NCBI GenBank assembly: GCA_021776915.1
Contig: JAIQZU010000074.1
Coordinates: forward strand, 40,268 to 104,267
Source: Candidatus Scalindua sp.
GTDB lineage: Bacteria; Planctomycetota; Brocadiia; Brocadiales; Scalinduaceae
DNA: 64,000 nt
Direction: 5' to 3'
Shown here: piece by piece, positions 12,182 through 56,560 of the stretch
How the letters are laid out: every line of letters begins with the position of its first letter
How positions within the stretch are numbered: position 1 is the first letter of the stretch
The notes under the pieces: model-generated
Seen by the model: only the letters and a program-made list of their open reading frames with translations
The model's database searches: none
Told to the model about the DNA's origin: nothing
Translations under genes and position numbers: made by a program

Positions 12182-14113
12182 TTACTCCTTTACCTCATAA
12201 TCTGCGTCAATGACATCTCCTCCTTCTTTACCTTTCTTAGAGTCCTTTCCTTCAGATTCACTGCCTTCCGTTGCTGCACCGGCATCTGCACCCGCACCCG
12301 CAGCCTGTTGCTTCTGTGCTGCCTCATACATAGCCTGTGCCAGTTTGTGGGAAGCTGCCTGCAGATCCTCTGTTGCCTTTTTGATTTCTTCCACATCACT
12401 TCCCTCTTTCGCCTTCTTAAGCTTTTCCAGCGCCTGGTCTATGTTGGCCTTCTCTGCCTCATCAACCTTATCACCGTGTTCTTTTAAGGTGTTCTCGGTC
12501 GAATATATTGCCTGATCGGCCTGATTCAACACATCTATTAATTCTCTCTTCTTCTTATCTTCCTCAGCATGTGCTTCTGCCTCGCTCTGCATCTTTTTGA
12601 CTTCTTCTTCAGATAATCCGGAAGACGATTTTATCTGAATAGATTGTTCTTTACCCGTTCCAAGATCTTTAGCTGAAACATGAAGGATACCATTTGCATC
12701 AATATCAAAAGAGACCTCAACCTGCGGAACACCTCTTGGGGCCGGAGGAATTCCGGCTAATTGAAAACGTCCAAGTGTCCGGTTATCGGCCGCCATTGGA
12801 CGTTCGCCCTGCAAAACGTGTATGTCTACAGCAGTTTGATTATCTGCCGCAGTTGAGAATGTCTCTTTTTTGTTTGTAGGTATTGTAGTATTCTTTGGAA
12901 TAAGGACTGTACAAACACTCCCAAGGGTTTCAATTCCCAGTGAAAGCGGTGTGACATCCAACAGCAGGACATCATGAAGTTCACCTCCAAGGACGGCGCC
13001 TTGAATTGCGGCACCCAGTGCAACAACTTCATCCGGATTTACGCTTTTATTTGGCTCTTTCTTGAATAGTTCTTTTACCAGTTTCTGTACAATTGGTGAC
13101 CTTGTTGTTCCGCCTACAAGGACTACTTCTGCTATGTCCGCGGGAGTTACTTTCGCATCTTCCATGGCGACTTCACATGGTTTACGGCACTTTTCAACAA
13201 GGTCACCGATTAATTGCTCAAACTTTGCCCTTGTCAAGCTCATGGTCAGATGTTTTGGCCCCGCCTGGTCTGCTGTTATAAAAGGGAGATTAATCTCCGC
13301 TGTTGTCGAAGTTGAAAGTTCGCATTTAGCCTTTTCAGCAGCTTCTCTGAGACGCTGCAAAGCCATGTGATCCTGCCTGAGTTCAATGCCCTGCTCTTTC
13401 TTAAACTCGTCAGCAATATAGTTCAGTAGTACCTGATCAATGTCATCTCCACCAAGATGTGTGTTACCATTAGTAGAGAGAACCTCAAAAACCCCTTCGC
13501 CTACTTCCAGTATTGAAATATCAAACGTTCCTCCACCGAGGTCAAAAACGGCGATCTTCTCATTTTTCTTCTTGTCAATACCGTATGCTAAAGATGCTGC
13601 GGTTGGTTCGTTAATGATACGAACCACATCTAAACCGGCTATCGTTCCAGCATCCTTCGTTGCCTGTCTCTGACTGTCATTAAAATAAGCAGGGACAGTA
13701 ATTACGGCCTTTTTTACTTCTGTACCCAGATAATCTTCAGCCGTTTTCTTAAGGTCTTGAAGTACCATTGCAGAGATTTCCGGAGGGGTAAAACTCTTTC
13801 CCCTTGCTTCTACCTTTACTAATTCGTCAGGATTGCCAACGATTGCATATGGTACCAGTTTTTCTTCCTGTGCAACTTCGTTATGTCTCCTACCCATAAA
13901 ACGTTTAATAGAAAATACTGTATTTTTCGGGTTAATAACCGCCTGTCGTTTGGCAAGTTGTCCAACCAGACGCTCATCTTTATCAGTAAAAGCCACTACA
14001 GAAGGAGTAATCCTGTTTCCTTCAGCATTTGTTATAACTTTTGGCTGATCACCTTCCATTACAGCTACTACAGAGTTAGTAGTTCCCAGATCGATACCTA
14101 TGATTTTTTCCAT
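12182..14113 (-). CDS. dnaK: molecular chaperone DnaK (Hsp70)
   Basis: A complete 643-residue Hsp70. It begins [20 protein letters not shown], and carries the phosphate loops [11 protein letters not shown] and [12 protein letters not shown], then the peptide-binding domain and a helical lid with a Gly/Ala-rich, acidic tail. The C-terminus [13 protein letters not shown] is typical. GGAGGAATTTG precedes the ATG at 14113; a TTG one codon upstream is disregarded. It refolds proteins in an ATP cycle with DnaJ and GrpE, neither of which is in this window. A 17-nt palindrome at 14200-14216 may be an operator. Confidence 0.99.
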
Positions 14114-25299: not shown

Positions 25300-25313
25300 T
25301 ATTCATATTACAT

Positions 25314-25387
25314 GGGCGATTAGCTCAGTTGGCTAGAGCACTTGCTCGACAAGCAAGGGGTCACTGGTTCGAATCCAGTATCGCCCA
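25314..25387 (+). tRNA. tRNA-Val (anticodon GAC), copy 1
   Basis: The 74-nt gene folds as a standard cloverleaf: acceptor GGGCGAT paired with ATCGCCC, D arm GCTC/GAGC, anticodon arm CTTGC TCGACAA GCAAG with anticodon GAC, T arm ACTGG TTCGAAT CCAGT. Discriminator A; CCA is not encoded. A near-identical copy lies inverted at 27516-27589, differing in the T loop (TTCGAAT versus TTCGAGT). Confidence 0.96.
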
Positions 25388-26395
25388 TATTGTCAGACAA
25401 GGACTTAGGAGAAATGGTTGAAGGCATAATCCTGTCGGTTGTGACCATTTTGTGACCAAAATATTTGAGGGAGTATGGTGAGCAAATTGCCATGCCCCTT
25501 TTTTATTCTTTTTTCATTCTTCATTTCTAAAATTCACCATTCACATATCAAGCGTAATCAGGTAGTGAAGCTGAGTTGTCGTATCCTCCCTCAGCACCAT
25601 AATCATTCCACTTTAACAAATTTCTTAATATCATCTCTTTGTTACTGAACTCATTATCGTTCAACAAAAACCGTAAGCATTTTTTAAGTTTTGATGAAGA
25701 AGATTCAATAACTATTGCAGAAAAATGCTTCTTTATGAAAGCGATGTATATACACCAATTGTTTATTGTATCAGCACGCTAGTTTAAAACTATGCACTTT
25801 CAGTGCAAGGCTTTCAGCTGCTTTTTAAAAAAATTTGTTGACAATATGCTGATTAAGAACGGATACGGAAACTATACTGTTTTTAGTTTTACAGTAGATT
25901 TTCCACCGGAATAAAAAGGACTTTCAGTCCAGAGTGGTTCAGTATTGCTTAAGTTAAATGCCATTCCGTAGAAATTACAAATATTTATTTGTTAGGTTAT
26001 TATGATATATAATACCTAGGGTACATGAAATCTGAAAACACTTATAATATGGTTGATATAAGATATTTTAGCAATCCGGTTATTTTATATAATAATCATT
26101 ACTGATTGAGTTTACGTGATTTTTCTTGTTGACAGAGGGTAATAATCTTTCTATTCTTTTGGTTCTTTCCTACTAGTTCTTTAGTGTGAAGAAGTGGCAA
26201 GGATGTCATAAGATAAAGTTTCAATGTTGTATTATTGATTGAAGTATATCATTTACACGAACCATACCAACTAACATTTTGTTCTATATGCACAGTAAGT
26301 TTCACCTTAATTCCTTGAGAGGAGGTCGTTGGAAGTGGTAAGGAAAATGTAATTCCAAAATTCTAATCGAGGGGAAACTGGAGAAAGGAGACTAT
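25388..26395. other. AT-rich accessory intergenic region (about 1 kb)
   Basis: No credible gene is seen. The first about 125 bp, containing TGTGACCATTTTGTGACCA and GCCATGCCCCTTTTTT, is an imperfect inverted copy of 27395-27515. Two small hairpins, GCACTTTCAGTGC (25794-25806) and GGACTTTCAGTCC (25918-25930), share a loop but differ at one paired position on both sides. The last bases hold the ribosome site for the following gene. Confidence 0.6.
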
Positions 26396-27016
26396 ATGGA
26401 AACAATGACGATAAACAAGAAACAGTACAAATTAGCCTTTATCTCAGGGAGGGTAGCTAGCATCTCAAAGAGGTCAGAAACACATGTTTCTGGTTCAGGT
26501 GGTGGTGGTCGCGGCCATACCATTCATGGGACTGGCGGTTCATCAACTTCACCAATTACTATAAGTTCTACGACTACGGTGCATGATGATTTATTCCTTA
26601 TTGAGAAGGATGGGAAGGAACATTCATTTCACTTGCGCAATTTTGATTTAGCGTGCATGGAAGGAAATACTGTTACCATTGCGTTTGCAATTATGGAGGA
26701 CAAAGATAGTAGCCCCCCTATAGCTGCCTACAACAATAGTACAAGAAGGGCTTTTTATAATAATCGGGTGATTAATGAAATGCATACACCTCATTATATG
26801 TATGGGGTTCTCAGTTTTTTTGTGGCACTTTCTCTGTCGGTGGTCTTCTTGTATACTAAACATTTCATTTTGTTCTTGATAGGAGCTCTTTCTATTATTC
26901 CGGCGGGTGTTGCCCGTAAAGATATAGGGAGGCGTAGAGCAAATAAATTTAAAAAAAGCTATGAGTTTGAAGGATTTACTAATTATTTGAGTTCTTTCCC
27001 GTTGATAGAAGGCTGA
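26396..27016 (+). CDS. hypothetical membrane protein with Gly-rich N-terminal region (accessory gene)
   Basis: The 206-residue product starts with a soluble part of about 130 residues containing RSETHVSGSGGGGRGHTIHG, then HDDLFLIEKDGKEHSFHL and FDLACMEGNTVTI. Two adjacent transmembrane helices follow (about 135-170) and a basic C-terminus (KDIGRRRANKFKK). This layout resembles a small family of uncharacterised bacterial membrane proteins with an SxSETHVxGSGGGG motif, but no function is known to me. AGGAGACTAT precedes the ATG. It is the only intact gene between the two inverted tRNA-Val copies, which suggests acquired DNA. Confidence 0.7.
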   Translation: METMTINKKQYKLAFISGRVASISKRSETHVSGSGGGGRGHTIHGTGGSSTSPITISSTTTVHDDLFLIEKDGKEHSFHLRNFDLACMEGNTVTIAFAIMEDKDSSPPIAAYNNSTRRAFYNNRVINEMHTPHYMYGVLSFFVALSLSVVFLYTKHFILFLIGALSIIPAGVARKDIGRRRANKFKKSYEFEGFTNYLSSFPLIEG

Positions 27017-27515
27017 ATGTATCTAATCAGGATAGGGAGCCGCTTTAGCGGCCCCCTCCCACAGCACCATGTCTATATCCCCTATTAGTTTATAATCCCA
27101 CCATGAAGAAACCATATCTATTAAGAGACTTTAGCAGACTTTAGAGACTTTAGAGACTTTAGAGACTTTGGGGTCAGACCTTGAAAGCAGAATGTACGAT
27201 CTTCTCTAATTTTTCTCTGTTTCCTCTTAAAGCTTCTTTATACGGTATCCGAGTGTATTAGTATGACATGTCGTAATCCTTTATTTGTACAGACGGAGAA
27301 ATAAGGAGTTCCGAAGAAAGAAAATAGGTGAGTGTCATCTTTTAAAGGGGGGGGGGGAGACGACAAACAAAATTTATGCAGTTTAAGTGAAGAAGAGAGT
27401 AAAAAAGGGGCATGGCAATTTACTTACCATACCCCTGATAAATTTTGGTCACAAAATGGTCACACCTTTCAGGATTTTACCACCTTATCTTACCATAAGT
27501 CCTTATCTGACAATA
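27017..27515. repeat. repeat-rich accessory DNA: tandem ACTTTAG units, RAYT-end copy, G11 tract, inverted flank
   Basis: From about 27125 to 27170 the unit AGACTTTAG is repeated in tandem about four or five times. It is followed at 27171-27215 by GGGTCAGACCTTGAAAGCAG and about 25 further bases that duplicate the left end of the transposase element at 27770-27815. A run of 11 G occurs at 27347-27357. From about 27395 to 27515 the sequence is the imperfect reverse complement of the flank of the first tRNA-Val. No supported coding sequence. Confidence 0.65.
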
Positions 27516-27589
27516 TGGGCGATACTGGACTCGAACCAGTGACCCCTTGCTTGTCGAGCAAGTGCTCTAGCCAACTGAGCTAATCGCCC
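27516..27589 (-). tRNA. tRNA-Val (anticodon GAC), copy 2, inverted
   Basis: On the minus strand the 74-nt sequence folds as the first copy does: GGGCGAT/ATCGCCC acceptor, anticodon arm with TCGACAA loop, T loop TTCGAGT. One T-loop base differs from copy 1. Downstream and upstream flanks are also related to copy 1, making a long imperfect inverted repeat about 2.3 kb across. Confidence 0.95.
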
Positions 27590-27666
27590 ATGATTTCCTT
27601 CCTGAATCTCCTACCGGCTGCAGACTATAAACTGAAATAGTGTCAAAGTAAACCCTCTTTCTGTTT

Positions 27667-36334: not shown

Positions 36335-36347
36335 CTCGCATGATCAA

Positions 36348-36395
36348 CCTCTATTTCGAGAGGATTCCAGTATTGGAATCCTCTCGAAATAGAGG
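36348..36395. repeat. 22-bp inverted repeat of the CTCTxTTTCGAGAGG family
   Basis: The arms CCTCTATTTCGAGAGGATTC (plus CA) and their exact reverse complement flank a 4-nt loop. The same design, with one paired base change and longer arms, occurs at 50289-50346; half copies occur at about 9415 and 42149. Sequence after it (to about 36560) contains GGCTTGCCGCCTGAGCC-type repeat DNA and no gene. Confidence 0.8.
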
Positions 36396-36669
36396 CCTGT
36401 CGTCAGGCCAGTTCGAACGCCCGCCTGCAAATATGTCCGGCAGACTACGATTGCCAAGCGAAGGCACTGGAACGATTCCAATTGTCACAGATGGTTCAGG
36501 CTTGCCGCCTGAGCCAATACTATAGTGCGGCATGGCCATTTGCCTGAATACAGGCAACATAATCTGGAATGACTAATATTGAGAAAAAATAAAATTTTAA
36601 ACGGCTTTAATCGCTCCGGTTTCTTAGCTTTAGACACTTTACACTTTAGTTCACTTTAGACACTTCCTT

Positions 36670-39872: not shown

Positions 39873-41558
39873 TTAGAACTTCATTGTTGTCTGCAACCAT
39901 ATCCAGTCCATACCTCTGTCTCCTGGTCCTACGCCACCTGATGTATCCTCAAGAAAGTCACCGGCGAAAAAGTGTCCGTAACCTGCAACAACACCAAAGT
40001 TCTCAAATAATTTATACTTAAGCGTAATATCAATTTCCTGGCCTAATTCATCATCCACACTCTGCAAGTTACCATTTCTATCAGTATACAGATCGGCACC
40101 CGCGCGATTTACACCCATACCACCACCAAAACCAGTACCACCTGCAATACTATACAAATTATCTGCCTCCTCATCCATTTCAAAGAAGTGAACCTTTGTG
40201 TCTATCAATAGTTTCTTGGTTGGCTTGACGCTAAAGTGTATCTGATGGTCTCTGATATTCTGCCATGAAGTCTGGTCCATGTATCCATTGTGCGCATGCG
40301 CTGTTGGATATAGGTGATCGAATGTAGTAGTATCTCCGGTAAGCGGATTATCATCACCTGATGCAAACGAATAAGCATAACCTATCCTTGGTGTCCATGG
40401 AACAGAACTGAAGGTGTATCCAGCCTCCGCATGAATCGCCCATGCTGAAATACCGTTAGTTACACTTCTGTTTGCGTTAATTGCACCGCCTACATCACTA
40501 CTAACATCCGCTGCTGAATTACCGCCTAAAGAAGCAGCCCTCAGTCCGGTTACAGTTCCCGACTGCCATGCCGGCTCTATTGTAAAATCTACTCCGGGAA
40601 GACTTGCCATCTTTTTTCCTTCAAGCCTGAACCCGTAGGTGTACCTATCCTCACCTGTTTGCCCTGCAGTAGCATGAGGGTTTGATGTTCTGGACCTTCC
40701 GATGAAGTAAGGTTCTATCAGAGCACCCGCTAAAGCACCACCAAACTTATACTGGGAATATACACCATATAAGACCTCGTCTCTGGCACTTGTCACACCG
40801 GCACCAGTAGTACCCCCAACCTCGTCCTCCTGTATCATAAACGAAAATGTGTCCACCCAGAGATTCTTTCCATTCGCATATCTCAATCTTGCACCGTCAT
40901 AAGATCTTCCCTGATTCGTCCAGTTCAAATGTCCTAATAACCTGTCATTACCATAATTCATCTGCCATCGCCCAACTCTAAGCTCTACATTGCCAAGCAT
41001 TGAGCTTAAATCGCCAAGATTTCTAAGTTCAACATAACCTTCCAGCATATCAACCCTTGCAAGGTTGGTGGTTGTAGCGGCGGCTTCACCAAAGACACGC
41101 GTGTCCTGCAATTTAACGTAACCACGTACGTTTTTATTTACATCTGCATCGAGATAGATCCTGGTCCTCTGCAATACAAAGTCTTCATCATCCATTCGAC
41201 CTATTCCAGCTTCTAAGTTTGCCTGCGTCTGTGCTGATGCTGATACCAGCGGAAGAACAATCCGATTAGCGCCTGCAGTACCGGCAGCTCCAACAGTCGG
41301 AACCCCAATACCTCCAGAATTTACCCACTGCACCTGCTCCTCAAAACGATGTCTTATTTCAAAGCCCATCTTCAGGCCCCTGATTTTTGGCGCAGTAACG
41401 TTACCGCCACCATTTGATTCCAACGCCTCTATCCTCTTGATGAGGTCTGTGTACGCAGCCTCCTGCGCCTTTGCATCCTGTACCCCTATCAACGCATACG
41501 CTGATGAGATTGCAAAAACAACTGCAAACGCAATAAAATAATTTCTAATTCTCAACAT
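39873..41558 (-). CDS. outer-membrane beta-barrel porin, alginate-export family
   Basis: The 561-residue protein starts with a signal peptide (YFIAFAVVFAISSAYALIG, then QDAKA), followed by a short coiled-coil (LIKRIEALESNGG). The remaining sequence is alternating beta strands. Family marks are NQGRSYDGARLRYANG, FDHLYPTAHAHNGYMDQTSW and DIDLTLKY-like strands, ending with aromatic WLQTTMKF. It would form a large channel in the outer membrane. The ribosome site GGGAGGTTAGGT is strong. Two identical hairpins and the coiled-coil gene follow it. Transport specificity is unknown. Confidence 0.88.
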   Translation of the reverse strand: MLRIRNYFIAFAVVFAISSAYALIGVQDAKAQEAAYTDLIKRIEALESNGGGNVTAPKIRGLKMGFEIRHRFEEQVQWVNSGGIGVPTVGAAGTAGANRIVLPLVSASAQTQANLEAGIGRMDDEDFVLQRTRIYLDADVNKNVRGYVKLQDTRVFGEAAATTTNLARVDMLEGYVELRNLGDLSSMLGNVELRVGRWQMNYGNDRLLGHLNWTNQGRSYDGARLRYANGKNLWVDTFSFMIQEDEVGGTTGAGVTSARDEVLYGVYSQYKFGGALAGALIEPYFIGRSRTSNPHATAGQTGEDRYTYGFRLEGKKMASLPGVDFTIEPAWQSGTVTGLRAASLGGNSAADVSSDVGGAINANRSVTNGISAWAIHAEAGYTFSSVPWTPRIGYAYSFASGDDNPLTGDTTTFDHLYPTAHAHNGYMDQTSWQNIRDHQIHFSVKPTKKLLIDTKVHFFEMDEEADNLYSIAGGTGFGGGMGVNRAGADLYTDRNGNLQSVDDELGQEIDITLKYKLFENFGVVAGYGHFFAGDFLEDTSGGVGPGDRGMDWIWLQTTMKF

Positions 41559-42148
41559 ACCTAACCTCCCCCAAAAAAAATGAAAAAAATGTATGAAAAA
41601 TTAACAGATTCTGATCATTACTTCCATATTACCAATATTACATATATTGCTGTAAACAGCATCTACAGAGAACCTTAAAACTAATGACAAGCAAAAAAAT
41701 AACCTTGTACGGGCATATATTCTACGCCCCTACTGATTGTGCAATTGCGATGCCATAAAGTCGGTACAGGGTGAATGAAATTATGCTACAGCGTAAGGGC
41801 ATATATTCTACGCCCCCCTACATTCTCATTCTGTTCTAATGCTATTACATGCTAAAGTACAATTTTCTACAGAAAGATGACGGCATTTTACAACTTTTCA
41901 TTAATTTGTCAATATATAAATAGTAATTTTTAAAATAATTTATTACTGTTTATAACTACAACACTTACAGCGTACAATATATTGCACCCTGCTTTAATTT
42001 ATAGACTCTCTATAGCTGGCACTAACTTACAAGCACCGTATTATGTTCGCATTCTCATGTATACCTGATACATCCAACGCTAAAGCTAGTGAGGAAAAGT
42101 GGCGCTACTGACTTTTAATTAATCAGGCCTACGGCAGCTTTTGACACG

Positions 42149-42308
42149 GCTGGAATCCTCTCGAAAGAGAGGAACAAATCCTTGCTTCCGCAAGGAATCC
42201 AGAAGGATGTGGATTAAGGACGAAGGCCAAATCCACCAATAATAGATCACAATTAAAGGTGGTTTCGCTATCGCTTAATCCCCGGACAAAAGACGCCGAG
42301 GACTTTCC
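42149..42308. repeat. dispersed non-coding repeat module (copy 2, inverted)
   Basis: GGAATCCTCTCGAAAGAGAGG-type sequence at the left and CCCCGGACAAAAGACGCCGAG with GACTTTCC at the right match, in reverse orientation, the module at 9283-9440. The middle is less similar. Confidence 0.65.
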
Positions 42309-42380
42309 ACCCACAGTAACAAAACCTTTGAAATTCCTCAAATACATCAAGTCAGGTCGCTATCGCGACAAAAGACTATC

Positions 42381-42424
42381 CTTCGACTCCGCTCAGGATG
42401 ACGTCACACTGAGCGGAGTCGAAG
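42381..42424. repeat. 15-bp inverted repeat (hairpin)
   Basis: CTTCGACTCCGCTCA at 42381-42395 and TGAGCGGAGTCGAAG at 42410-42424 are exact complements separated by 14 bases. It is a palindrome type common in intergenic DNA of many bacteria. Confidence 0.75.
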
Positions 42425-42485
42425 TGTTATCAACATTGAAATTCCCATGCATCAAGTCAGGCCTTCGGCAACTTTTTGTCGTTGC

Positions 42486-42513
42486 GTAGGGGCGTATAAT
42501 TATACGCCCCTAC
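42486..42513. repeat. 28-bp perfect palindrome
   Basis: GTAGGGGCGTATAA is followed directly by its reverse complement. Shorter relatives occur at about 41709 and 41790 in the same region. Confidence 0.75.
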
Positions 42514-42603
42514 ATTTTGTTACAACATTGAAATTCCTATGCATTAAATTAGGCCTTTGGTGACTTTGTAAAAAGGGCAAGCCGGAGATATTAGAAATGA
42601 TGG

Positions 42604-43536
42604 TTATTTCTTTTGTGCCTGCTTTTCAAAATACGCTTTACGCATTTCGTGCCTTTTTGGGATATGGCAGTCGCCGCATATACTAAAGTCAAAGGAAGCC
42701 TTGGCCAGTTTTTGCCCCTGTGCAATATCGTATTCTTCATCTCGAAAGCCCTGCATCAGGTAAGAGTACACCTCTCCAGGACCATGACATGCTTCACAGC
42801 CTACGCCTTCCGATGCGTAGATCCCCTTATCTTCCCGGTAACCGGTGGTGTGGCATTTATAACACTGCTTCTTATAATTCTCATCACCTGCTTGATAATC
42901 CGGTTCTTTCTGTATTCTCTCAAAAGTCTTAAATTTTGTATTGCTCCATCTTTTGACGTGATCCGGATGCATGTCGTTTTCCTTGTGGCATCCAACACAT
43001 TCATCGTTTCCTACATAAAGTTGATACTGCCCTGTAGGGCCAAGGAAACTCTCCCTTCGCAACCTTATTTCCTCTTCCGGATTCAAATCCCGTAGCCGCT
43101 TCCACATCTTTATAAACTCATCGGCAGAATAACGGCCCTCCTCCATCGCCTCCCTATCCGCATACATATGCTCATGCGCAGGCTCCGACTCAAGAGCCCT
43201 GCCATTTCCACCATGACATACTGTACATCCATATACGTCAAAAGGGATAGGAAGGTCTTTCGGATGCAATTTTACCAACTTATCTTCATCAATATGACAC
43301 GTCATACACCTGTCTACACGCTGGCCACTCTCCTGATGACTCCAAAGGCCCTCGCCCTTTAGCAATATCTGCTTTATCTCCAGCTTCTTACCCTTTAAGG
43401 ATTCATTATCCTCTATTTCGGCCCTCTGACACTGTTTCCACTCTGGATTAAACTCTTTACAGAACCATACCAGAGAAACACCCAGGAGCAGGACAGATAT
43501 CGTAAGCAGCCAGATTAATTTTACGTAAGGACCCAT
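42604..43536 (-). CDS. membrane-anchored hexaheme cytochrome c of the bc complex operon
   Basis: The 310-residue protein has an N-terminal membrane helix (LIWLLTISVLLLGVSLVWF) and six CxxCH heme-binding sites: CMTCH, CTVCH, CVGCH, CYKCH, CEACH and CGDCH. Extra His residues spaced along the chain can serve as sixth ligands. The VGCEACHGPG context resembles the cytochrome c-554 and related multiheme class. It is the last of four minus-strand genes (Rieske, cytochrome b N-part, cytochrome b C-part, this). It probably takes the role of cytochrome c1/f and passes electrons to soluble carriers. The role is inferred from gene order. Confidence 0.92.
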   Translation of the reverse strand: MGPYVKLIWLLTISVLLLGVSLVWFCKEFNPEWKQCQRAEIEDNESLKGKKLEIKQILLKGEGLWSHQESGQRVDRCMTCHIDEDKLVKLHPKDLPIPFDVYGCTVCHGGNGRALESEPAHEHMYADREAMEEGRYSADEFIKMWKRLRDLNPEEEIRLRRESFLGPTGQYQLYVGNDECVGCHKENDMHPDHVKRWSNTKFKTFERIQKEPDYQAGDENYKKQCYKCHTTGYREDKGIYASEGVGCEACHGPGEVYSYLMQGFRDEEYDIAQGQKLAKASFDFSICGDCHIPKRHEMRKAYFEKQAQKK

Positions 43537-43542
43537 ATTATT

Positions 43543-44382
43543 TTAAAAGTTTAAGATTGTGTTAAAAATTTGAAGAGACAGTATATATTTAACATCAAAT
43601 ACATATCTCAAGAAAATTTTAATAGGTATTAATAACATAATTGCACATAAGCTCATAAAGATATAATACCTTATGATTCCCAGGGTTTTATAGAAATTTT
43701 CAAAAATATACTTCGGCAGGATTACACAAACACCAAAATATATAATAAAAAACGCAATCCCAACGGCAATAGGAAAAGTCACCATTTCTACTACAGGCAG
43801 CTCCTTCAAAACAGCCTTATCTTCCCATGGCCAGTAAAACATCCTGGCCGGGCCCCTGAAAAACTGTCCGATAATAATAAGTATATACCACATGGCAAAA
43901 CCAAAACCAAAAGCCGACACCGCTACCGGCCTGTCCCGAAAGGTATATCTGCCAATACCGGTTTCTTTATGTGGATCGATAAAAGGAAGTATTAGTAAAC
44001 CTACAAGCAATATACTGGGAAGGACAACACCTGCCAGCCATGGATCAAAAAATATAAGCAGTTCCTGCAGCCCTATGAAGTACCATGGCGCTCTCTCATC
44101 AATGGGTGTGTCAGCAGGATTTGCCAGTTCTTTTAATGGCGCATTCATAAAAAGAGACCACACCATTATTATGAAAGTAAATATCAGTCCGGCAAGAAAT
44201 TCTATTCCAACAGAATCACGGAGATGTTTAACGGTATAGTCCTGCTCTTTAGGAGTCAGAGTCTCGAAGCCTTCCTTGTAGTCGCTTTTTACGTTAATAT
44301 TCTTAACGTTTTCCCACTCCTTTTCTGACATGCGAACTATAACTTCGCCATTTCCTTTTGATTCTTTTTCTAATTCAGCCAT
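43543..44382 (-). CDS. cytochrome b C-terminal part (subunit IV-like) with non-canonical Qo motif
   Basis: The 279-residue protein has a soluble charged N-terminus and about six membrane helices, more than the three of plant subunit IV. The quinol-site motif reads ERAPWYFIGLQELLIFFDPW, so PEWY is replaced by a PWY form without its Glu. GPARMFYWPWEDKA follows in a loop. The start ATG at 44382 has AGGA 7 bases upstream and is preferred over a longer reading. It sits between cytochrome b N-part and the hexaheme protein. It provides the quinol oxidation site with Rieske and cytochrome b. Confidence 0.88.
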   Translation of the reverse strand: MAELEKESKGNGEVIVRMSEKEWENVKNINVKSDYKEGFETLTPKEQDYTVKHLRDSVGIEFLAGLIFTFIIMVWSLFMNAPLKELANPADTPIDERAPWYFIGLQELLIFFDPWLAGVVLPSILLVGLLILPFIDPHKETGIGRYTFRDRPVAVSAFGFGFAMWYILIIIGQFFRGPARMFYWPWEDKAVLKELPVVEMVTFPIAVGIAFFIIYFGVCVILPKYIFENFYKTLGIIRYYIFMSLCAIMLLIPIKIFLRYVFDVKYILSLQIFNTILNF

Positions 44383-44435
44383 TCTTTTTTCCTGTAAGAA
44401 AGTATATATAATGTACAAGTCTCATACTGTGTAAT

Positions 44436-45221
44436 TTAAAGCGGCCCTGAAACCCCTCCAGCCCTTCTTATGCGCCAGAAATGGAATCCCATTAACCCGG
44501 CAATTCCAAGAGGTATTGCTATTGCATGCAAAAGATAAAACCTTAACAAAGTAGGCTGTCCAACCGACGTACCGCCCACCAGAATAGAATTTACATCTTT
44601 TCCATGCTCTAATATTGCAAATGGCCCCTTTGCCCCTAATAAAGGCGCATTTTCTCCCATACTGGTCCCTATAGTAACACCCCAGTAGGCCAACTGATCC
44701 CAAGGAAGCAGATACCCTGTGAAACTTGCAAGCAAAGTCATCACCAGGAGAATCACCCCTACAATCCAGTTCAACTCCCTCGGGGGTTTATATGCGGCTG
44801 TCAAGAATACACGCAACATGTGAAGGGCAACAAACAACACCATCAGGTGGGCCGTCCACCTATGCATATTTCTTATCAGAACGCCAAACGGCACAATGTA
44901 TCGCATGTCTTCGATATTTGCATAAGCCGAATTTACATCGGGGTTATAATAAATCATTAGAAACGCACCTGTACATGCAAGCAATGTGAAGAAGAATACA
45001 CTTAAACCTCCAAGGCAAAATGTATACAATATAATCCTCTTGCCGCCCACACTCATGTTATATGGGTGCAACTGCATGATCTTCGCAATTCCACGCATGA
45101 GGCTGTTAAATGGAGACAAAGGTTTGAATTCACCAAATAAGAGGTCCCCGAATACAGCCTTCCAAGCCTGAGTTTCCTTTATATCAAATTTCTTGTCTTC
45201 TTCTTTGTTCTGTCTTTCCAT
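44436..45221 (-). CDS. cytochrome b6-type subunit of the bc complex
   Basis: The 261-residue protein has four core membrane helices and b6-type marks: NMHRWTAHLMVLFVALHMLR with His ligands of the two b hemes, YKPPRELNWIVGV, GYLLPWDQLAYWGVTIGT and VGQPTLLRFYLLHAIAIPLG, ending in GVSGPL. It binds hemes bL and bH and moves electrons across the membrane in a Q-cycle. The preceding Rieske gene and following C-part are on the same strand with short gaps. The membrane could be that of the anammoxosome if the host is anammox, which is an inference. Confidence 0.96.
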   Translation of the reverse strand: MERQNKEEDKKFDIKETQAWKAVFGDLLFGEFKPLSPFNSLMRGIAKIMQLHPYNMSVGGKRIILYTFCLGGLSVFFFTLLACTGAFLMIYYNPDVNSAYANIEDMRYIVPFGVLIRNMHRWTAHLMVLFVALHMLRVFLTAAYKPPRELNWIVGVILLVMTLLASFTGYLLPWDQLAYWGVTIGTSMGENAPLLGAKGPFAILEHGKDVNSILVGGTSVGQPTLLRFYLLHAIAIPLGIAGLMGFHFWRIRRAGGVSGPL

Positions 45222-45325: not shown

Positions 45326-45838
45326 TCAAACCTGCAAAACAAAATCAATGCCGACTTTATTGTCTTTATCTACAATCAAGCGTCCGTCATCACTCATTGA
45401 GATATGAACGCGATCCAAAGGCCTGGGCGGAGGTCCTGCAAAATTAACCCCATTTTTATAAAACTGCCCTCCGTGACAAGCGCATTTAAATATTTGTTGC
45501 TCCTCAAGCCATCTAGGCTGACACGACAAATGTGTACATGCTGCTATGAGCGCGTAAATACCCTCTTTTTCTCTAATAATCCATACCTTGCGTGAACTTA
45601 TAAGTGTTACAGAACCCATAGGATAGTCTTCAGGCCTGCCTGCTTTGAATATATTTGAAGGTTCATAGGAAACTCTGGGGATTAAATACCGGACAGTTGC
45701 GAATGCCCACATGGAAACCATCCCCCAGAAAATTAACCAGGCTGACCAGAAAAGAGCTCTTCTGGTTGCTGTCTTTGGATGTGTCAGAAGCGATTCGGGT
45801 TCGTAATTTTCGTCACTGGATAAATCAACGTGTGCCAT
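45326..45838 (-). CDS. Rieske iron-sulfur subunit of the bc complex
   Basis: This 170-residue protein has one membrane anchor (LFWSAWLIFWGMVSMWAFAT) and the Rieske [2Fe-2S] motifs CTHLSCQP and CACHGGQF, with PPPRPLDRV closing the cluster domain. It is the first gene of the bc operon. The ATG at 45838 is preferred over an upstream TTG; its ribosome site is weak. The region upstream is duplicated before nirS and carries a strong promoter at 46101-46128. It carries electrons from quinol to the cytochrome subunit. Confidence 0.96.
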   Translation of the reverse strand: MAHVDLSSDENYEPESLLTHPKTATRRALFWSAWLIFWGMVSMWAFATVRYLIPRVSYEPSNIFKAGRPEDYPMGSVTLISSRKVWIIREKEGIYALIAACTHLSCQPRWLEEQQIFKCACHGGQFYKNGVNFAGPPPRPLDRVHISMSDDGRLIVDKDNKVGIDFVLQV

Positions 45839-46338
45839 AATCAAAACTCGACTTTAAATTCAAAATTTAAATAAGGCAAACACCCTGTGTTCACAAAGAG
45901 TGTCAAAGATACTCAACTCTTCAGTAAGCCACGGCTTTCAATCTAATCGCTGACAAATGAATTTGATATGAAAAAGTTTTGGAGAGGATTTATACTCTTA
46001 CTTATCTACTGAAAAGCAAATAGATAAAATAACCTGATTTCCTCCCCTCCCACCACATAGTAAAGAAAATCAGACAAAGACTTACGCTCAACTTGCAGAC
46101 ACTATATAAATTATTGCTCTAATGTCAAGTATTTTTTTAATTTTATTTTATATTATATTTAAAACACTTGAAATCAAAACAAAGAAATTATAGACTCTAT
46201 AAATCAACCTCTAAACAAAAGCCATAGGTTCGATCCCTAATATCGCCAGTTATTATTTTAATGACGTGCTTAGGTTCAGAATGTATAAACTCTGAATCTT
46301 ACTTTAATTGTTAGAATACTAAAATTAAGGAGGATATG
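45839..46338. repeat. upstream region of Rieske operon, duplicated before nirS
   Basis: Between about 45829 and 46150 the sequence matches 56239-56560 with many identical blocks, such as CGTGTGCCATAAT at the gene end, AAGACTTACG, and AATGTCAAGTATTTTTT at the promoter. A fragment AGGTTCGATCCCTA with ATATCGCCA near 46228-46249 looks like a tRNA 3' end. An ATG-proximal AGGAGG for the cupredoxin gene is at the right edge. Confidence 0.75.
46101..46128 (-). promoter_or_regulatory. sigma-70-like promoter of the Rieske-cytochrome b operon
   Basis: On the minus strand TTGACA (46128-46123) and TATAGT (46106-46101) are 16 bases apart. Transcription would start near 46094, giving a leader of about 250 nt. 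A paralogous promoter with the same spacing is at 56511-56538. Confidence 0.75.
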
Positions 46339-50253: not shown

Positions 50254-50557
50254 TTTATCATTCAGCTATCATGCTTTACATAAACATGACCTGCCTCTCT
50301 TTCGAGAGGATTCCAATTCTGGAATCCTCTCGAAAGAGAGGCAGGTATTCTGATCCTTATACTAATAATGGCAATACAGCCTATAACACCTCAGATTTAT
50401 AATCTAATTTACGCTTGATACGTGAAGGAAACCTGAAAAATAGTAAGTGGGGACTCTGGATGTGAACTAATCGTGAACTCTTTTTTCGGATTGTTTATTT
50501 CTCATTAACTGAAGGAATGAAGCGTATTGCGCTTATCCATATTTCAGCGCCTGCCTA
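50254..50557. other. intergenic region with long inverted repeat
   Basis: It contains the 27-bp inverted repeat at 50289-50346 and no gene. No terminator after the radical SAM operon is visible besides this palindrome. Confidence 0.6.
50289..50346. repeat. 27-bp inverted repeat of the CTCTxTTTCGAGAGG family
   Basis: ACCTGCCTCTCTTTCGAGAG plus GATTCCA and its exact reverse complement flank a 4-nt loop. It is the longer sister of 36348-36395; where one has A-T the other has C-G in both arms. Confidence 0.85.
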
Positions 50558-51730
50558 TCATGTATTGCTTGTGATTGGAACAGCCTCTGTAATTTCCTCC
50601 TCGGTCAGGTAGCACGCAGGATCCGCCCCGAATGGGTCGCCGCACATTTCCTCTGCCCTGGCTCCGCATCCCCTGCAAAGGTGATTATACCTACATCTCC
50701 CACACCTGCCTTTGAGATATTGAGTTTTATCACTCATCCTGGCGAGAACCTCGTTTTCCTTGTCAAAACATATGTCGCCAAACCTCTGCTCCCGTATATT
50801 GCCTATTGTCCGGCTCTTCCAGTAGGGACATAGGTGTACATTGCCACGGTAGTCCACGTTAACAATCCTGTCCCCTGCCGGACATCCTCCCTGCCTTTCA
50901 AGAAGTTTTTTCATCTCAGCAGCAAGCTCCGGTTCACGCTCTGCAAAACGTTGCAACAGGTAAACGCCGTCGTCATATAATTGTTCGGTAACAACCTCCA
51001 TCTCCGGATTCTTCATCGCATAATCAATTAGAAAGTCAATGATTCCCCGCCTTTCTTCCTTCACAACCTTCCAGTCTCTGCCATCAAAGTGCTGGCAAAC
51101 CGCAAATCTCTTGAGTTCTGCGTTTTCTATAGCCTTAATTATGGACGGCATTTCAGTCAGGTTGAAACTTCCAATAGTAATCCTCACACCACACCCCACC
51201 CCTGCGTCTCTGAGGCGCTCCATAGCAGGCAAAGCCATTTCTAATCCTGCAATAACGTCCATGGCGCCGCCAATCTGAGAAAATCCGTCCATATCAATAC
51301 CCACATATGAGATACCAGACTCCGCAATTTCTCTGGCGGTTTTCTCTGTTACAAGGGCGGCATTACTGGATAAGATAACCCTCAGTCCCTTCTTATGGGC
51401 GTGGCCTGCAAGTATGAAAAAATCATCCCTGGTTAAGGGCTCTCCCCCATAGACAGAAATCATAGGCACCTTCATTGACGCCATCTGGTCAATAAACTCT
51501 AAAGCCTCCTGCGTAGTCAACTCGTCACTCTCTGCCTCAAGAGCAGAGTCGAGGTGGCATATATCGCAGGAGAAGTTGCACTTCCTGGTAATATTCCAAC
51601 TCACCATGGGAGCTTTGACATTTGAGTATCTGATAAGGTGCTTTGGCACCTCATCAGCCCTTTTATTGTGGTGTTTTTCAACATCAAGGGCTGTCTCCCT
51701 TACCTTGAGCAACCGGCTGAAGTTAATCAT
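50558..51730 (-). CDS. radical SAM protein, NirJ/AhbC-AhbD type (paralogue A)
   Basis: The 390-residue enzyme has CNFSCDICH (CxxxCxxC), the SAM motif VYGGEPLTRDDF, and a C-terminal Cys-rich region. This reads GGCPAGDRIVNVDYRGNVHL, CPYWKS, KGRCGRCRYNHLCRGCGARA and ends DPACYLTEEEI, the signature of heme d1/alternative heme enzymes. Unlike paralogue C, the DGSEEAHDKFRG stretch is changed to MDGFSQIGG. Its ATG at 51730 lies within the stop of paralogue B (8-bp overlap), preceded by GGAGG. It is the last gene of the trio. The reaction is unknown; a side-chain removal on a tetrapyrrole is the family role. Confidence 0.85.
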   Translation of the reverse strand: MINFSRLLKVRETALDVEKHHNKRADEVPKHLIRYSNVKAPMVSWNITRKCNFSCDICHLDSALEAESDELTTQEALEFIDQMASMKVPMISVYGGEPLTRDDFFILAGHAHKKGLRVILSSNAALVTEKTAREIAESGISYVGIDMDGFSQIGGAMDVIAGLEMALPAMERLRDAGVGCGVRITIGSFNLTEMPSIIKAIENAELKRFAVCQHFDGRDWKVVKEERRGIIDFLIDYAMKNPEMEVVTEQLYDDGVYLLQRFAEREPELAAEMKKLLERQGGCPAGDRIVNVDYRGNVHLCPYWKSRTIGNIREQRFGDICFDKENEVLARMSDKTQYLKGRCGRCRYNHLCRGCGARAEEMCGDPFGADPACYLTEEEITEAVPITSNT

Positions 51731-52886
51731 GCAACGCCTCCTCATGCACCGGTTTAAGGATTTCTTCTTCGGTCAAGTAGCAGCTCGGATCAGTGGCGCC
51801 GAAATCATCATAAACAGCTAGAGCCCTGGCCCTTGAGCCGCCCCTGCAGATTTCCAGAAACCTGCATTCTGCACACTTGCCGTGGAGCAGACTTTCCCTG
51901 TGCCTGAGCTTCCACAGGAACTCGTTATCACTGCTCCAGATATCTTTAAGGGTCCTCTCCCTGATGTTCCCCAGTTCGGTCTTCATGTGCTGACTGGCGA
52001 ACACATTACCCTTTTCGTCTATGTAGGCGAGCTTTTCACCGCAACCTTCACCGCCGTTGCGGAGAAAGTGCTCGTATGCTGCCCTGGCTTTTTGCGGGTC
52101 TTCCTTCAAAACTTTCATGTATATGTAGGCGGCGTCAGCGTAGTTTCCGACTGTGAGGACCTCGAGATCGTGGTTGTGGCGATTTATCTCAACGGTTTTC
52201 CTGAAGAGGCTATCCACGGCTCTCCGCCGTTCATCAGGCGACAAGTCATTATTCATGAGTTCCCGCCCGCGACCGGCATACTCAAGATGATAAACGCAGA
52301 GACGGTGAAAACCCTCCTCTACCAGGAGATCCATAATCCGCGGGAGTTCATGGCAGTTGAGCCGGGTTATGGTGAACCTCAACCCTGTCTTTATCCCGGT
52401 GTCGCGGAGGTTCCGCATTCCCTGAAGGGCATTGCTGTAAGCATCTCCACTACCCCTGAAGGAGTTGTTCGTCTCGGCTAAGCCATCCAGGCTGATGCCA
52501 ACGTATCCGAAGCCGGCATCTGCCGCCTTTGCCGCTATCTCCCGGGTAACTACAGTACCGTTGGAGGACACTATGACCGGCAAACCTATCTCCCTGGCAT
52601 AGCTCCCCAGTTCGAAAACATCCGCCCGTAAAAAAGGCTCACCACCAGAGAGTATCATGAATGGGGAGCCACAATCTGCTAATTCATCTAGCATTTTTTT
52701 TGCTTCATCGGTCGAGAGTTCGCCATCAGTGGCTGCATTACCGCCAGAATAGCAGTGCATGCAGTTTAGATTGCATTTCCTCGTCGTACACCATACCACA
52801 ACCGGAGCTGAGCCTTCACGGCGCCTGTGGCGAAGATCCTTGTTTTCAAGCTTCTCCGACACCAGCAACCTGCTAACTTCTATCAT
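51723..52886 (-). CDS. nirJ: radical SAM protein, closest to NirJ (paralogue B)
   Basis: The 387-residue enzyme has CNLNCMHCY, the SAM motif ILSGGEPFLRADVF, and a C-terminal region GEKLAYIDEKGNVFASQHM, KCAECRFLEICRGGSRARAL and DPSCYLTEEEI. The GGSRARAL form and the non-Cys residues after GNVFASQ match NirJ, which removes two propionates to form oxo groups in heme d1 synthesis. It overlaps paralogue C by 14 bp at its start and paralogue A by 8 bp at its end, so the three are one operon. Assignment as NirJ is by motif and context. Confidence 0.82.
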   Translation of the reverse strand: MIEVSRLLVSEKLENKDLRHRRREGSAPVVVWCTTRKCNLNCMHCYSGGNAATDGELSTDEAKKMLDELADCGSPFMILSGGEPFLRADVFELGSYAREIGLPVIVSSNGTVVTREIAAKAADAGFGYVGISLDGLAETNNSFRGSGDAYSNALQGMRNLRDTGIKTGLRFTITRLNCHELPRIMDLLVEEGFHRLCVYHLEYAGRGRELMNNDLSPDERRRAVDSLFRKTVEINRHNHDLEVLTVGNYADAAYIYMKVLKEDPQKARAAYEHFLRNGGEGCGEKLAYIDEKGNVFASQHMKTELGNIRERTLKDIWSSDNEFLWKLRHRESLLHGKCAECRFLEICRGGSRARALAVYDDFGATDPSCYLTEEEILKPVHEEALHD

Positions 52887-54075
52887 GTAACCCAACCTTT
52901 GCTCCGGAAATTTCCTCCTCCGTCAGGTAGCACGCAGGGTCTTCCCCGAAAGGATCGCCATTGGCAACCTCTGCCCTGACCCTGCATCCCATGCAAAGGT
53001 GATTAAGTTTACACCTCCCGCACTTATCCTTGATATAGCGCGTTTTGTCCCTCATCTTGGCGAGAAACTCGTTTTCCTCGTCAAACCAGATTTCACTGAA
53101 CTTCTTCTCCCGAATATTGCCCATTGTCCGGCTCTGCCAGTAAGGGCAGAGGTGCACGTCCCCCCGATTGTCAATGTTCGCAAGTCCGTCCCCTGCCGGA
53201 CAGCCGCTCTGCATAGCAAGGAGTCTTTCCACCTCAGCAGCGCGTTCCGGCTCGTGCTCTGCAACATTTTGAAGCAGATAAATGCCGTCGGCATAATTAT
53301 CGGCTGTAACAATGTTCATGCCGTTACTCACCCTTGCTTCCTTTATTACATAGTCCATCACATCTCTTCGCTGCTCGTTGAAGATGTCCCAGTCGATAAT
53401 CTCCTTCCCTCTGCCGCCGTACACGAGCTGGAAGAGTGAGAATCTTGGTATTTTTTCGCGCTTGGTTATCTCCAGGACCTTGGACAGCTCGTCGTAGTTC
53501 TGATTGGTAATGGCAAACCTCACGCCTGTCCTGACCCCTTCCTCCATGAGATACCTCAGCCCCTGAAGCGACTTCTCAAAGGCCCCCTTGGCCCCACGAA
53601 ATTTATCGTGGGCTTCTTCGCTGCCATCCAGGCTGACTCCGACATAAGCGAAGCCGGCTTTCTTAATTTTCTTCGCTACTTCCCTGGTTATAAGGGTGCT
53701 GTTGGTCGATAGAATGGTCCTGAGTCCAAGCTTCATGGCGTACACGTTAAGCTCATATATATCGTCTCGAAGCAACGGTTCGCCGCCTGAGAAAGCGAGC
53801 ATGGGAGATTTTATAGACACTAAGTCCTCAATCATGTCCATCGCCTCTCTGGTTGTGAGCTCTCCCATATCTTCCTCTGAATCTTCCCCAACTGCGTTAA
53901 TATAGCAGTGGGCGCAACTCAGATTACACTTCCTGGTTACATTCCAGACCACTATAGGGGAGGATGTCTTAGAGAAGCGAAGCATCCATTTTGGAGCTTC
54001 CTCCTTGACTGCTGAGTACCTTTTTATCTCTTTCAGTGTTTGTGTGCTTTGTAAAAGCTTCGAACAATTTATCAT
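52873..54075 (-). CDS. radical SAM protein, NirJ/AhbC-AhbD type (paralogue C)
   Basis: The 400-residue enzyme starts MINCSKLLQS, like the other two (MINFSRLL, MIEVSRLL). It has CNLSCAHCY, AFSGGEPLLRDDIY and DGSEEAHDKFRG, and a C-terminal Cys cluster CPAGDGLANIDNRGDVHLC, CGRCKLNHLCMGCRVRA and DPACYLTEEEI. It resembles AhbC/AhbD-type enzymes of the alternative heme and heme d1 pathways. It is the first gene of the trio; a MITE-like element lies just upstream. The ribosome site is weak. Substrate assignment is open. Confidence 0.85.
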   Translation of the reverse strand: MINCSKLLQSTQTLKEIKRYSAVKEEAPKWMLRFSKTSSPIVVWNVTRKCNLSCAHCYINAVGEDSEEDMGELTTREAMDMIEDLVSIKSPMLAFSGGEPLLRDDIYELNVYAMKLGLRTILSTNSTLITREVAKKIKKAGFAYVGVSLDGSEEAHDKFRGAKGAFEKSLQGLRYLMEEGVRTGVRFAITNQNYDELSKVLEITKREKIPRFSLFQLVYGGRGKEIIDWDIFNEQRRDVMDYVIKEARVSNGMNIVTADNYADGIYLLQNVAEHEPERAAEVERLLAMQSGCPAGDGLANIDNRGDVHLCPYWQSRTMGNIREKKFSEIWFDEENEFLAKMRDKTRYIKDKCGRCKLNHLCMGCRVRAEVANGDPFGEDPACYLTEEEISGAKVGLHDRS

Positions 54076-54323: not shown

Positions 54324-55955
54324 CTAATATATGTCATGCACTGTGTTGTACACATTAAACTTACCAGTTGGCGTGAGAAGGTTCGGGATCCTTGTCTTTA
54401 TTGTCATAGTAGCGTCGTCTATCACCACTATCTCACCTGCCTTGCCTTTATCAGCATCGCCTAAATTACCCCAGATGCTTACCCAAATCTCGTCTCCTGC
54501 TTTATTGTACTCCATGTGTACAGCCTTACCATAGTCTGCAACTTTCAAGGTCTTGAATATCCCGGCTTTAATATTTGCCTTGTCAAAGATACCAAGAGTT
54601 GTCCTGTTTTTCTCTTTCTTACTAACGGGATGGTCAACCCAAACCCACTTGCTTTTCGGATGGGTCTTAATGAACAAGTTACCAGAACTGAGCGCTTGTA
54701 CTTTCGCGACCATCTTAAAGGCATGCTCCGGATGACCCACCGGATCCGTACCTATAATTGAAATCACATCATCGCCGATGTGCCCCGTTGCCCAGACCGG
54801 ACCGAACTCTGGATCAATCCAGTTTGCACCTCTTCCGGGATGCGGTTTAGTGCCGCCTGTGTCAACATTTGCAACGAGCTTCCTTTCCTTAGTATCTATT
54901 ATGGATATCTTGTTCCTGGCGTTCGCTGCCACGAGGAAGTAGCGCTTGGATGAATCCCAGCCTCCGTCATGCAGGAAGCGTTCGGCCTCAATCATTGTAA
55001 TGGTAGGGTTGTTTACGTCTTCATAATTAACGAGCCATACCAGTCCTGTTTCTTTAATGTTCAAGACCCATTCAGGTGCGATATGCGACGATACAATGCT
55101 GGCTACGCGCGGCTCAGGGTGAAACTCTTCTGTGTCGTAAGTGTAGCCCAGTGTGCTCACGATTTTAAGTGGCTCAAGAGTCATGCCGTCCAGTATCACA
55201 AACTGAGGTGGCCAGTAACCGCCGACTACGGCATACTTGTCTTCGTAGCCTTTAAACTTGCTCGTATCAATGGATCGCGCGTCAAGTGAGCATCGGATCT
55301 CTGCTACGGTCGCAGGAATCTTCATAAAGAGGTCTATCATAGTAGCCTTGCCATCCCTGCCTATAGAATACACGTATCTTCCTGATGCTGACATTCTGGT
55401 GATGTGTACCGCATAGCCTGAATCAACTGTGCTTATTACTTCTTTGGTGTCACCGTCAATAATCGCTATCTTGCCGGCATCTCGCAGAACCACGGAGAAC
55501 ATATTATCTATGTCACGATTGTGCTCCGGCTTTGTAGGACGTTTATCCGGTGGGATTATCAATTTCCAACTACCTTTAATGGATGTCATATCCCATTGTG
55601 GTGGAATAGGAGGTTCGACCTGAATGTACGCCACCATGAGATCTGTCTCTTCTTCGCTCATAACACCCATTTGTCCCCAGCCAGGCATACCTTTGGCGGT
55701 TCCATACCATAACATATCTCTGAGCTTCTTGTGTCCCTTGGGTATCATCTTAGCCGGAGTCAGATTTGGCCCAGTGGCCCCTTTTCTCAAAACTCCATGG
55801 CAACCTGCACAGCGGTCGAAGTATACCTGCCTCATATTTTCGAACTGTTCAGGGGTAAGAGTCGCCTCTGGGTGATCTCCAGCTATCGCCTGTGTACCAC
55901 CTGCCACAAAAGCAACAACTAACATTAACATTAATCCAATTAAAAACGCTCGCAT
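54324..55955 (-). CDS. nirS: cytochrome cd1 nitrite reductase NirS
   Basis: The 543-residue protein has a signal peptide (AFLIGLMLMLVVAFVAGG), a cytochrome c domain with CAGCHG at residues 49-54, and the d1 beta-propeller. Catalytic His residues are in place: SSHIAPEW and ERFLHDGGWD. Closing motifs TPHPGRG or similar (GGTKPHPGRGANW), VWATGHIGDD and LTPTGKFNVYNTVHDIY match denitrifier NirS. It reduces nitrite to NO in the periplasm or equivalent compartment. The start at 55955 is chosen because GGAGGTGAAAGAT precedes it; longer readings lack a signal peptide. A terminator follows. This is true NirS rather than NirF or NirN, as both active-site His are present. Confidence 0.95.
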   Translation of the reverse strand: MRAFLIGLMLMLVVAFVAGGTQAIAGDHPEATLTPEQFENMRQVYFDRCAGCHGVLRKGATGPNLTPAKMIPKGHKKLRDMLWYGTAKGMPGWGQMGVMSEEETDLMVAYIQVEPPIPPQWDMTSIKGSWKLIIPPDKRPTKPEHNRDIDNMFSVVLRDAGKIAIIDGDTKEVISTVDSGYAVHITRMSASGRYVYSIGRDGKATMIDLFMKIPATVAEIRCSLDARSIDTSKFKGYEDKYAVVGGYWPPQFVILDGMTLEPLKIVSTLGYTYDTEEFHPEPRVASIVSSHIAPEWVLNIKETGLVWLVNYEDVNNPTITMIEAERFLHDGGWDSSKRYFLVAANARNKISIIDTKERKLVANVDTGGTKPHPGRGANWIDPEFGPVWATGHIGDDVISIIGTDPVGHPEHAFKMVAKVQALSSGNLFIKTHPKSKWVWVDHPVSKKEKNRTTLGIFDKANIKAGIFKTLKVADYGKAVHMEYNKAGDEIWVSIWGNLGDADKGKAGEIVVIDDATMTIKTRIPNLLTPTGKFNVYNTVHDIY

Positions 55956-56238
55956 ATCTTTCACCTCCATGAAATTGATTTTAATAAAGAACATCTCCTT
56001 TTCACTAGAGCTTGTGCGTTTCCTCTCGTCTTTGTTCTTCTTCAGCATAAGCAAAATTGCACGCACACATCATTTTAGACCAACAGAACTAACTACAGAA
56101 ACAACTATACTGAAAATCCCTTATTCAACATACTCACTGAAACATCTACTTTTCACTACAGTTTGTACGTTCTTCCCCCCTCCTTTCGTGGCAATGGTAT
56201 AAAAGTTTCCAAAAGATATTATTTGAAATGCGAAATGT

Positions 56239-56560
56239 ACGTGTGCCATAATTAAAACTCGACTATTAATTCAAAATTTAATAAGGCAATTGCCCTTTCT
56301 TCTTAAAGAAAAACATATTACATATTTATCTCTAAAAAGCCAAGGCTTTACATTTTATAAGCTGGCAATTGAACTTTGATATGAAGAAAACTACATAATT
56401 TTGGAGGGAATTAACATCTCAATTGAAAAACAAAATATGTACTACCTAATCCGCCCCCCACCACCACCTTACTTGAGAATCAGGACAAGACTTACGAATG
56501 TCTTGTCGCCAATATATAAATTACAGCACTAATGTCAAGTATTTTTTAATTTTGCAGAAT
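56239..56560 (-). repeat. copy of the Rieske operon upstream region before nirS
   Basis: This segment matches 45829-46150 in the same strand orientation, including CGTGTGCCATAAT with the first codons of a Rieske-like frame, an AATTCAAAATTTAA block and the promoter block AATGTCAAGTATTTTTT. The segment suggests duplication of the bc promoter, bringing nirS under similar control. Confidence 0.8.
56511..56538 (-). promoter_or_regulatory. sigma-70-like promoter upstream of nirS
   Basis: On the minus strand TTGACA (56538-56533) and TATATT (56516-56511) are 16 bases apart, as in the bc operon promoter. Transcription would start near 56504, giving a leader of about 550 nt before the nirS ATG. Confidence 0.7.

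Follow-up and report, generated by a model that had tools for sequence, protein, structure and literature searches.

The nirS upstream region of a Candidatus Scalindua genome is homologous to the control region of its bc operon and was most likely copied from it

The region upstream of nirS in Candidatus Scalindua sp. is homologous to the bc operon's upstream region, up to and including the first four Rieske codons, and we consider it quite probable that it was copied from the bc operon, which would give both operons one shared control. The window analysed here is a stretch of 64,000 nucleotides of contig JAIQZU010000074.1; all coordinates are based on it, and its own bin is genome G000. It contains nirS, the gene for cytochrome cd1 nitrite reductase, at 54324..55955 (-) (PF02239, Cytochrom_D1, E 5.7e-130), followed by three radical SAM genes at 50558..54075 (-), the first of which (52873-54075) was tested with Pfam. 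The bc operon starts with the Rieske gene at 45326..45838 (-) (PF00355, E 3.2e-08) and continues at 42604..45221 (-) with genes for two cytochrome b subunits (N- and C-terminal) and for a multihaem cytochrome c; Pfam backs the bc gene names (Rieske, Cytochrome_B and Cytochrom_B_C). In S. profunda, three nirJ-like genes are described beside nirS, which is highly expressed (accessible text of PMC3655542). The bc genes of G006 and G014 are followed by a 545-aa multihaem cytochrome (L038:1081-2718, L040:6827-8464), and none was seen at 41558 to 42604, the corresponding part of the window. Near the window start, ~45 kb from the bc operon, positions 193-693 (+) encode a sigma-54 activator domain (PF00158).

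Homology, predicted promoters and the junction before nirS

We aligned the bc control region at 45822..46144 (-), which comprises the promoter, the leader and the first Rieske codons and is the likely donor type, with its nirS copy at 56233..56553 (-). Identity was 72% over 340 columns with a local score of 160, whereas 200 composition-preserving shuffles reached at most 45, and a BLASTN search of the window's own bin, with the bc region as query, returned the nirS copy at E 1.9e-30 and 71% identity. The shared blocks are collinear, the aligned stretch begins 306 nt ahead of the Rieske start codon and extends 17 nt beyond it, and the two regions lie in direct orientation ~10 kb apart, so that homologous control regions precede non-homologous genes (nirS and Rieske). 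Convergence alone is ruled out for this pair by the shared Rieske codons and the alignment score. An earlier note on this DNA had proposed that 45829-46150 and 56239-56560 share blocks in the same order, including the codons for MAHV and the promoters, and had suggested comparing their alignment with background; the collinear alignment and its shuffles bear this out.

A hexamer scan, with letters checked, predicted sigma-70-type promoters for the bc operon (TTGACA-N16-TATAGT, 46101..46128 (-)) and for nirS (TTGACA-N16-TATATT, 56511..56538 (-)). Each site has 11 of 12 consensus letters, and the weaker sites of the same scan occur in about the number expected by chance; both would function as promoters. 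The distance from the end of the -10 hexamer to the start codon is ~263 nt for the bc operon and ~556 nt for nirS. Both promoters and the leader lengths of about 250 and 550 nt had been named in the earlier note, and they agree with these measurements.

The Rieske gene begins with ATGGCACACGT (Met-Ala-His-Val) at 45838..45828. Alignment blocks, with letters checked, place the same ATGGCACACGT in the nirS leader at 56239..56249 (-), 294 nt ahead of the nirS start; there it constitutes a fossil Rieske start (MAHV). Directly after it comes the nirS 5' region at 55956..56238 (-), as expected from the earlier claim that the nirS copy keeps a Rieske-like start and then diverges. We examined this junction in an alignment of 17 nirS 5' regions, among them L090 (VRUK01000110.1, isolate MohnsGC08_bin89; NirS 84% identical), L091 and L092, the three used among the matches listed by a scan of named genomes (80 of 585 loci, mostly from distant groups). 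After the fossil codons, the window sequence is that of L090, L091 and L092, and these three have a promoter-like TTGACA-N17 stretch just before the common nirS 5' region. The 17-sequence alignment therefore indicates that the bc region and four Rieske codons were joined near the relatives' own promoter-like site. The Rieske codons, fused here to nirS 5' sequence that relatives share, suggest that copying most likely ran from bc to nirS, and the incoming bc control region probably replaced a native nirS promoter that the relatives seem to keep. Of the proposal that a duplication put nirS under the bc promoter, the duplication itself thus stands, with bc most likely as its source.

The copy in G006 is without the fossil start codon. 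We rejected the idea of a small coding sequence starting from the fossil MAHV, since its start is lost in G006 and its frames differ between G000 and G000b. Past the junction, a 30-nt direct repeat (ACGyACAArCTvTAGTGAAAAGkAGATGTT) occurs twice, at 56141-56170 and 55990-56019 (-), and its first copy is absent from L091, L092 and G006 in the 17-sequence alignment. Within the nirS 5' region, 55990-56070 (-) resembles a signal peptide remnant (..CNFAYAEEEQ..) that is conserved in L090, L091 and L092.

The leader in relatives and a second, separate copy

BLASTN with either copy against 17 family genomes found a nearly full-length leader in G000 (three places, one of them on contig C23), G003, G006 (two), G010 and G014 (two), all of one genus; G013 had short leader matches at the 3' end only, and the remaining matches were short and weak. 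A covariance model of the leader core recovered these nine places, with no others at E 0.01, from 150 candidates scored per genome out of 551-2109. The same pairing, which the earlier note had proposed to look for in other genomes, is therefore found in them. Two copies per genome might be expected of a dispersed repeat or mobile element that landed at both places; we consider this highly improbable, since neither BLASTN nor the covariance model (at that sampling of candidates) found a third site of that length in the 17 genomes. Contig C23 of G000 (L007; G000b) carries a second nirS, radical SAM, EF-G and HisA segment in the same order. The NirS identity is 88-90%, and the segment is probably a co-binned second strain.

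In L090, the bc upstream region at 12680-13160 has a copy before nirS at 967-1287. The two share blocks of 208 columns at 91% and 117 columns at 92%, the latter taking in the Rieske start codon plus 13 more codons, and beyond these the sequences diverge; in the bc region the blocks are separated by ~160 nt that are absent from the nirS copy. In the window, and again in L090, the control region has moved independently of genes, onto nirS's own 5' region. The bc-only ~160 nt of L090 (L090:12885-13045) hold a further TTGACA-like promoter site, and a proximal TTGACA-like site is kept before L090 nirS at about 1613, as it is in L091 and L092. The Rieske start of L090, MVDEIDVRYLKKIR (M-DEIDVRYLKK-R), differs from that of the window (MAHVDLSS), and the two fossils therefore record different events. 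Read from these codons, bc-to-nirS copying appears to have occurred at least twice, in the window lineage and in L090.

The two fossils also bear on an alternative history with a single duplication, in which insertion of a nirS island between EF-G and the bc operon doubled the junction (EF-G end, bc leader and Rieske start), later likeness being due to inheritance and occasional conversion. The gene order is compatible with it: HisA, a C-terminal fragment of EF-G and the bc operon stand side by side in G002, which yielded no nirS; an intact EF-G precedes nirS in 11 of 15 nirS loci (none lies within ~5 kb in G004 and G016, and the contig ends in G013 and L090); and in L090 the bc leader is immediately preceded by a C-terminal piece of EF-G. 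Each fossil, however, matches its own lineage's Rieske start (MAHV or M-DEIDVRYLKK-R), which demands at least one later copying or conversion, and clade B keeps no long likeness between its two regions. We regard a single duplication as unlikely, although such an entry with a doubled junction could have supplied the direct repeats.

Promoter propagation, also termed horizontal regulatory transfer or regulatory switching, has been described (Matus-Garcia 2012 and Oren 2014, via the accessible text of PMC9944727). As in the present case, intergenic control regions move apart from genes there and an unrelated region replaces one in place. Unlike in that account, one genome here holds both donor and receiver, each a named respiratory operon, the codons carried along give the direction, copying seems to have happened at least twice, and the same promoter class stands at both operons. 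The case would thus be a readable example of two respiratory units that stay co-regulated by copying the control region of one onto the other, with codons marking the direction.

Sigma-54-like control in relatives

Sigma-54 promoters have a TGGCAC-N5-TTGC-like consensus, with activator sites upstream. We detected a sigma-54-like element (7-10 of 10 letters) in 16 upstream regions from G004, G005, G007, G008, G009, G011, G012, G013 and L090, so that 8 of the 13 genomes of the genus, plus L090, are sigma-54-like in those upstream regions that could be seen, and palindromes lie farther upstream. The nine sigma-70-type regions score at most 6/10 or not at all, which is within chance. The palindrome TTGACANNNTGTCAA, or one close to it, stands 116-132 nt (start to start) before the element in 13 of the 16 regions; before the bc operons of G007, G012 and G013 the palindrome is present beyond the stretch first scanned. 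A second palindrome, GACA(T/G)AATGTC, lies exactly 38 nt before the TTGACANNNTGTCAA-like one in nine of these 13. The palindrome pair of the sigma-54-type regions (GACATAATGTC/TTGACANNNTGTCAA) is a candidate activator target, and one common activator is likely to bind it. Our search for an activator singled out no regulator among the matches listed.

The combined pattern of palindrome and element had 15 matches in 62 genomes of the order and none in a reversed control. Because nirS and bc sites were used to build the pattern, finding it there follows from its design, and the result is its absence elsewhere. According to tblastn, 14 of the matches precede nirS or a Rieske gene, and the fifteenth, at a contig end of G013, shares with the G013 bc leader a 168-nt overlap in which 3 positions differ. 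The search missed G005 nirS, where the element is weak (7/10, reached by 18 of 200 shuffles) and the palindrome has a changed base; G016 nirS and G002 bc belong to neither promoter class. The elements of the relatives are predicted, and in following a palindrome (13 regions) they resemble sigma-54 promoters elsewhere; unlike the general class, in the 62 genomes searched the pattern is found only before nirS and Rieske genes.

Two of the 15 matches (G015:C67:22083-22229 and G016:C1:43305-43448) come from other genera and stand before a Rieske gene that is a distinct paralogue (41% and 37% identity). Their regions are homologous to that of L090, with scores of 178 and 166 compared with a shuffle maximum of 36. 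Since the pattern and a homologous region stand before other Rieske genes, bc operons look like the older owners of the sigma-54-like control. Sigma-54 machinery has not been lost from the sigma-70-type genomes, because all five have rpoN, which is present in 16 of the 17 family genomes; the one without a match, G007, is 77% complete.

The relatives have a sigma-54-like promoter and palindromes at both operons, and the shared control of nirS and bc therefore probably predates the window's leader. This modifies the earlier suggestion that shared regulation arose by the window's duplication: the leader probably did not create it. For the relatives we predict a small sigma-54 regulon of nitrite reductase and bc complex, which would connect electron transport with the step by which anammox begins. 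The terms anammox, nirS and Rieske do not occur in the accessible text of a sigma-54 regulon survey (PMC12316311), nor do 'promoter' and 'sigma' in that of PMC3655542, and among the papers listed by a literature search, judged by title and the start of the abstract, none dealt with nirS or bc promoters in anammox bacteria. Marine nirS transcript levels are reported to correlate with anammox rates (accessible text of PMC3655542). Since the promoter differs between species, our results bear on how such data are read.

Matching promoter classes and exchanged leaders

The same promoter class is found at both loci in 10 of the 10 genomes that show both, a raw count over related genomes that is uncorrected for ancestry. 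Both loci are sigma-70-like in G000, G006 and G014 and sigma-54-like in G004, G005, G008, G009, G012, G013 and L090. This comparison covers genomes with both loci, and so omits G003, G010, G011 and G016 (orthologous Rieske gene not found), G007 (nirS not found) and G000b (nirS contig only). L090 has sigma-70-like sites at both loci as well, and the classes are therefore not strictly exclusive.

Within clade B genomes, the nirS and bc regions share short elements only; the scores of G004, G008 and G012 are in the shuffle range and those of G005 and G009 just above it. Copying is therefore not supported there, and convergence on one activator suffices. Whether selection alone, with the same regulators acting on control regions that converged or were separately conserved, could account for the other genomes too is a different matter. 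It leaves unexplained both the Rieske codons before nirS and a likeness of 72-91% over 160-340 columns in G000, G006, G014, G013 and L090. Selection alone is contradicted for these five and stands for clade B; as a general explanation we judge it very unlikely.

Sigma-54-type leaders are more alike within a genome than between genomes, as seen in the single pair of L090 and G013: the two loci are 91% alike within L090 and 90% within G013, whereas between the two genomes bc matches bc at 77% and nirS matches nirS at 73%, over shorter stretches. Sigma-70-type leaders are only 61-65% alike within one genome, not more than between genomes, and so were exchanged rather than kept identical. They fall into two variants (split support 100). 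G000 has one variant at bc and the other at nirS; in G006 and its sister G014 the arrangement is reversed, with the flanking genes in place. Among informative sites, 31 support exchange, 4 orthology and 3 within-genome likeness in G006, and 30, 7 and 4, respectively, in G014. The sites supporting orthology are mostly at the leader ends, and G014 bc holds a short tract of the other variant.

Binning or chimeric contigs could in principle have produced a duplicate or an exchange: in G013, both ends of contig C63 fall at the repeat and C161 starts within it, and C23 of the window's bin repeats the nirS region, perhaps from a second strain. Both copies lie on one contig in the window and in L090, however, and separate genomes, G006 and G014, show the same exchange with flanking genes in place, which makes an assembly artefact barely credible.

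A tree of nine linked genes rejected the grouping of all six sigma-70 loci together (p-AU 0.003). A position of G013 outside G000, G003, G000b, G006 and G014 was compatible with the tree (p-AU 0.08), in which several nodes are weak, and the constraint G000+G003+G000b without G013 was rejected (p-AU 0.038). For this tree, rSAM1 and rSAM3 of G006 and G007 were blanked and G007 was dropped, because in another tree the rSAM rows of these two genomes were partial or paralogous. The two trees disagree on the placement of G006/G014 and of G016, and any number of class changes read from them depends on linked genes and weak nodes.

Recombination between the two direct-orientation upstream regions is likely to re-copy or exchange them occasionally, and would explain why the same class stands at both operons although the class varies by species. 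We give roughly even weight for and against the fuller proposal that nirS and the bc operon form a two-member regulon whose control regions are one interchangeable part, with recombination at direct repeats flanking the nirS island repeatedly re-imposing the bc region, changing the class at both and leaving Rieske codons as fossils. Gene conversion between bacterial repeats is known, for example, from ribosomal operons (PMC8022953). There, as here, two similar stretches recombine, and the L090 and G013 pairs are closer within than between genomes; unlike ribosomal operons, the stretches here are non-coding leaders ~10 kb apart, and the sigma-70-type variants were exchanged, not equalised. Judged from these control regions, the copied region is likely to make the cell switch nirS and bc on together, and such co-expression would tie nitrite reduction to the bc complex.

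The earlier note had also raised the possibility that the leaders are regulatory RNAs. We predicted a G-rich/C-rich hairpin in the bc leader at 45981..46047 (-) (fold z -2.23) and a corresponding weaker one in the nirS leader at 56403..56459 (-), whose single fold (z 0.44) is no better than shuffles. The helix is common to the nine leaders and shows some covariation (10 both-side cells compared with 4.0 in shuffles, 1 of 500 of which was as high, and 0-2 when slid), but the changes mostly separate the two variants. In single folds, the bc leader alone was clearly better than shuffles and the other four of five were not, and a known RNA family was rejected, as only two tRNAs in the window reached the Rfam gathering score. 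A regulatory RNA is thus possible, with the helix covariation giving the suggestion slight support. Elsewhere in the window, two long near-perfect palindromes of similar sequence lie at 36339-36401 and 50285-50346, and 25311-27592 contains two inverted tRNA genes in 97-nt arms that are 98% complementary and ~2 kb apart.
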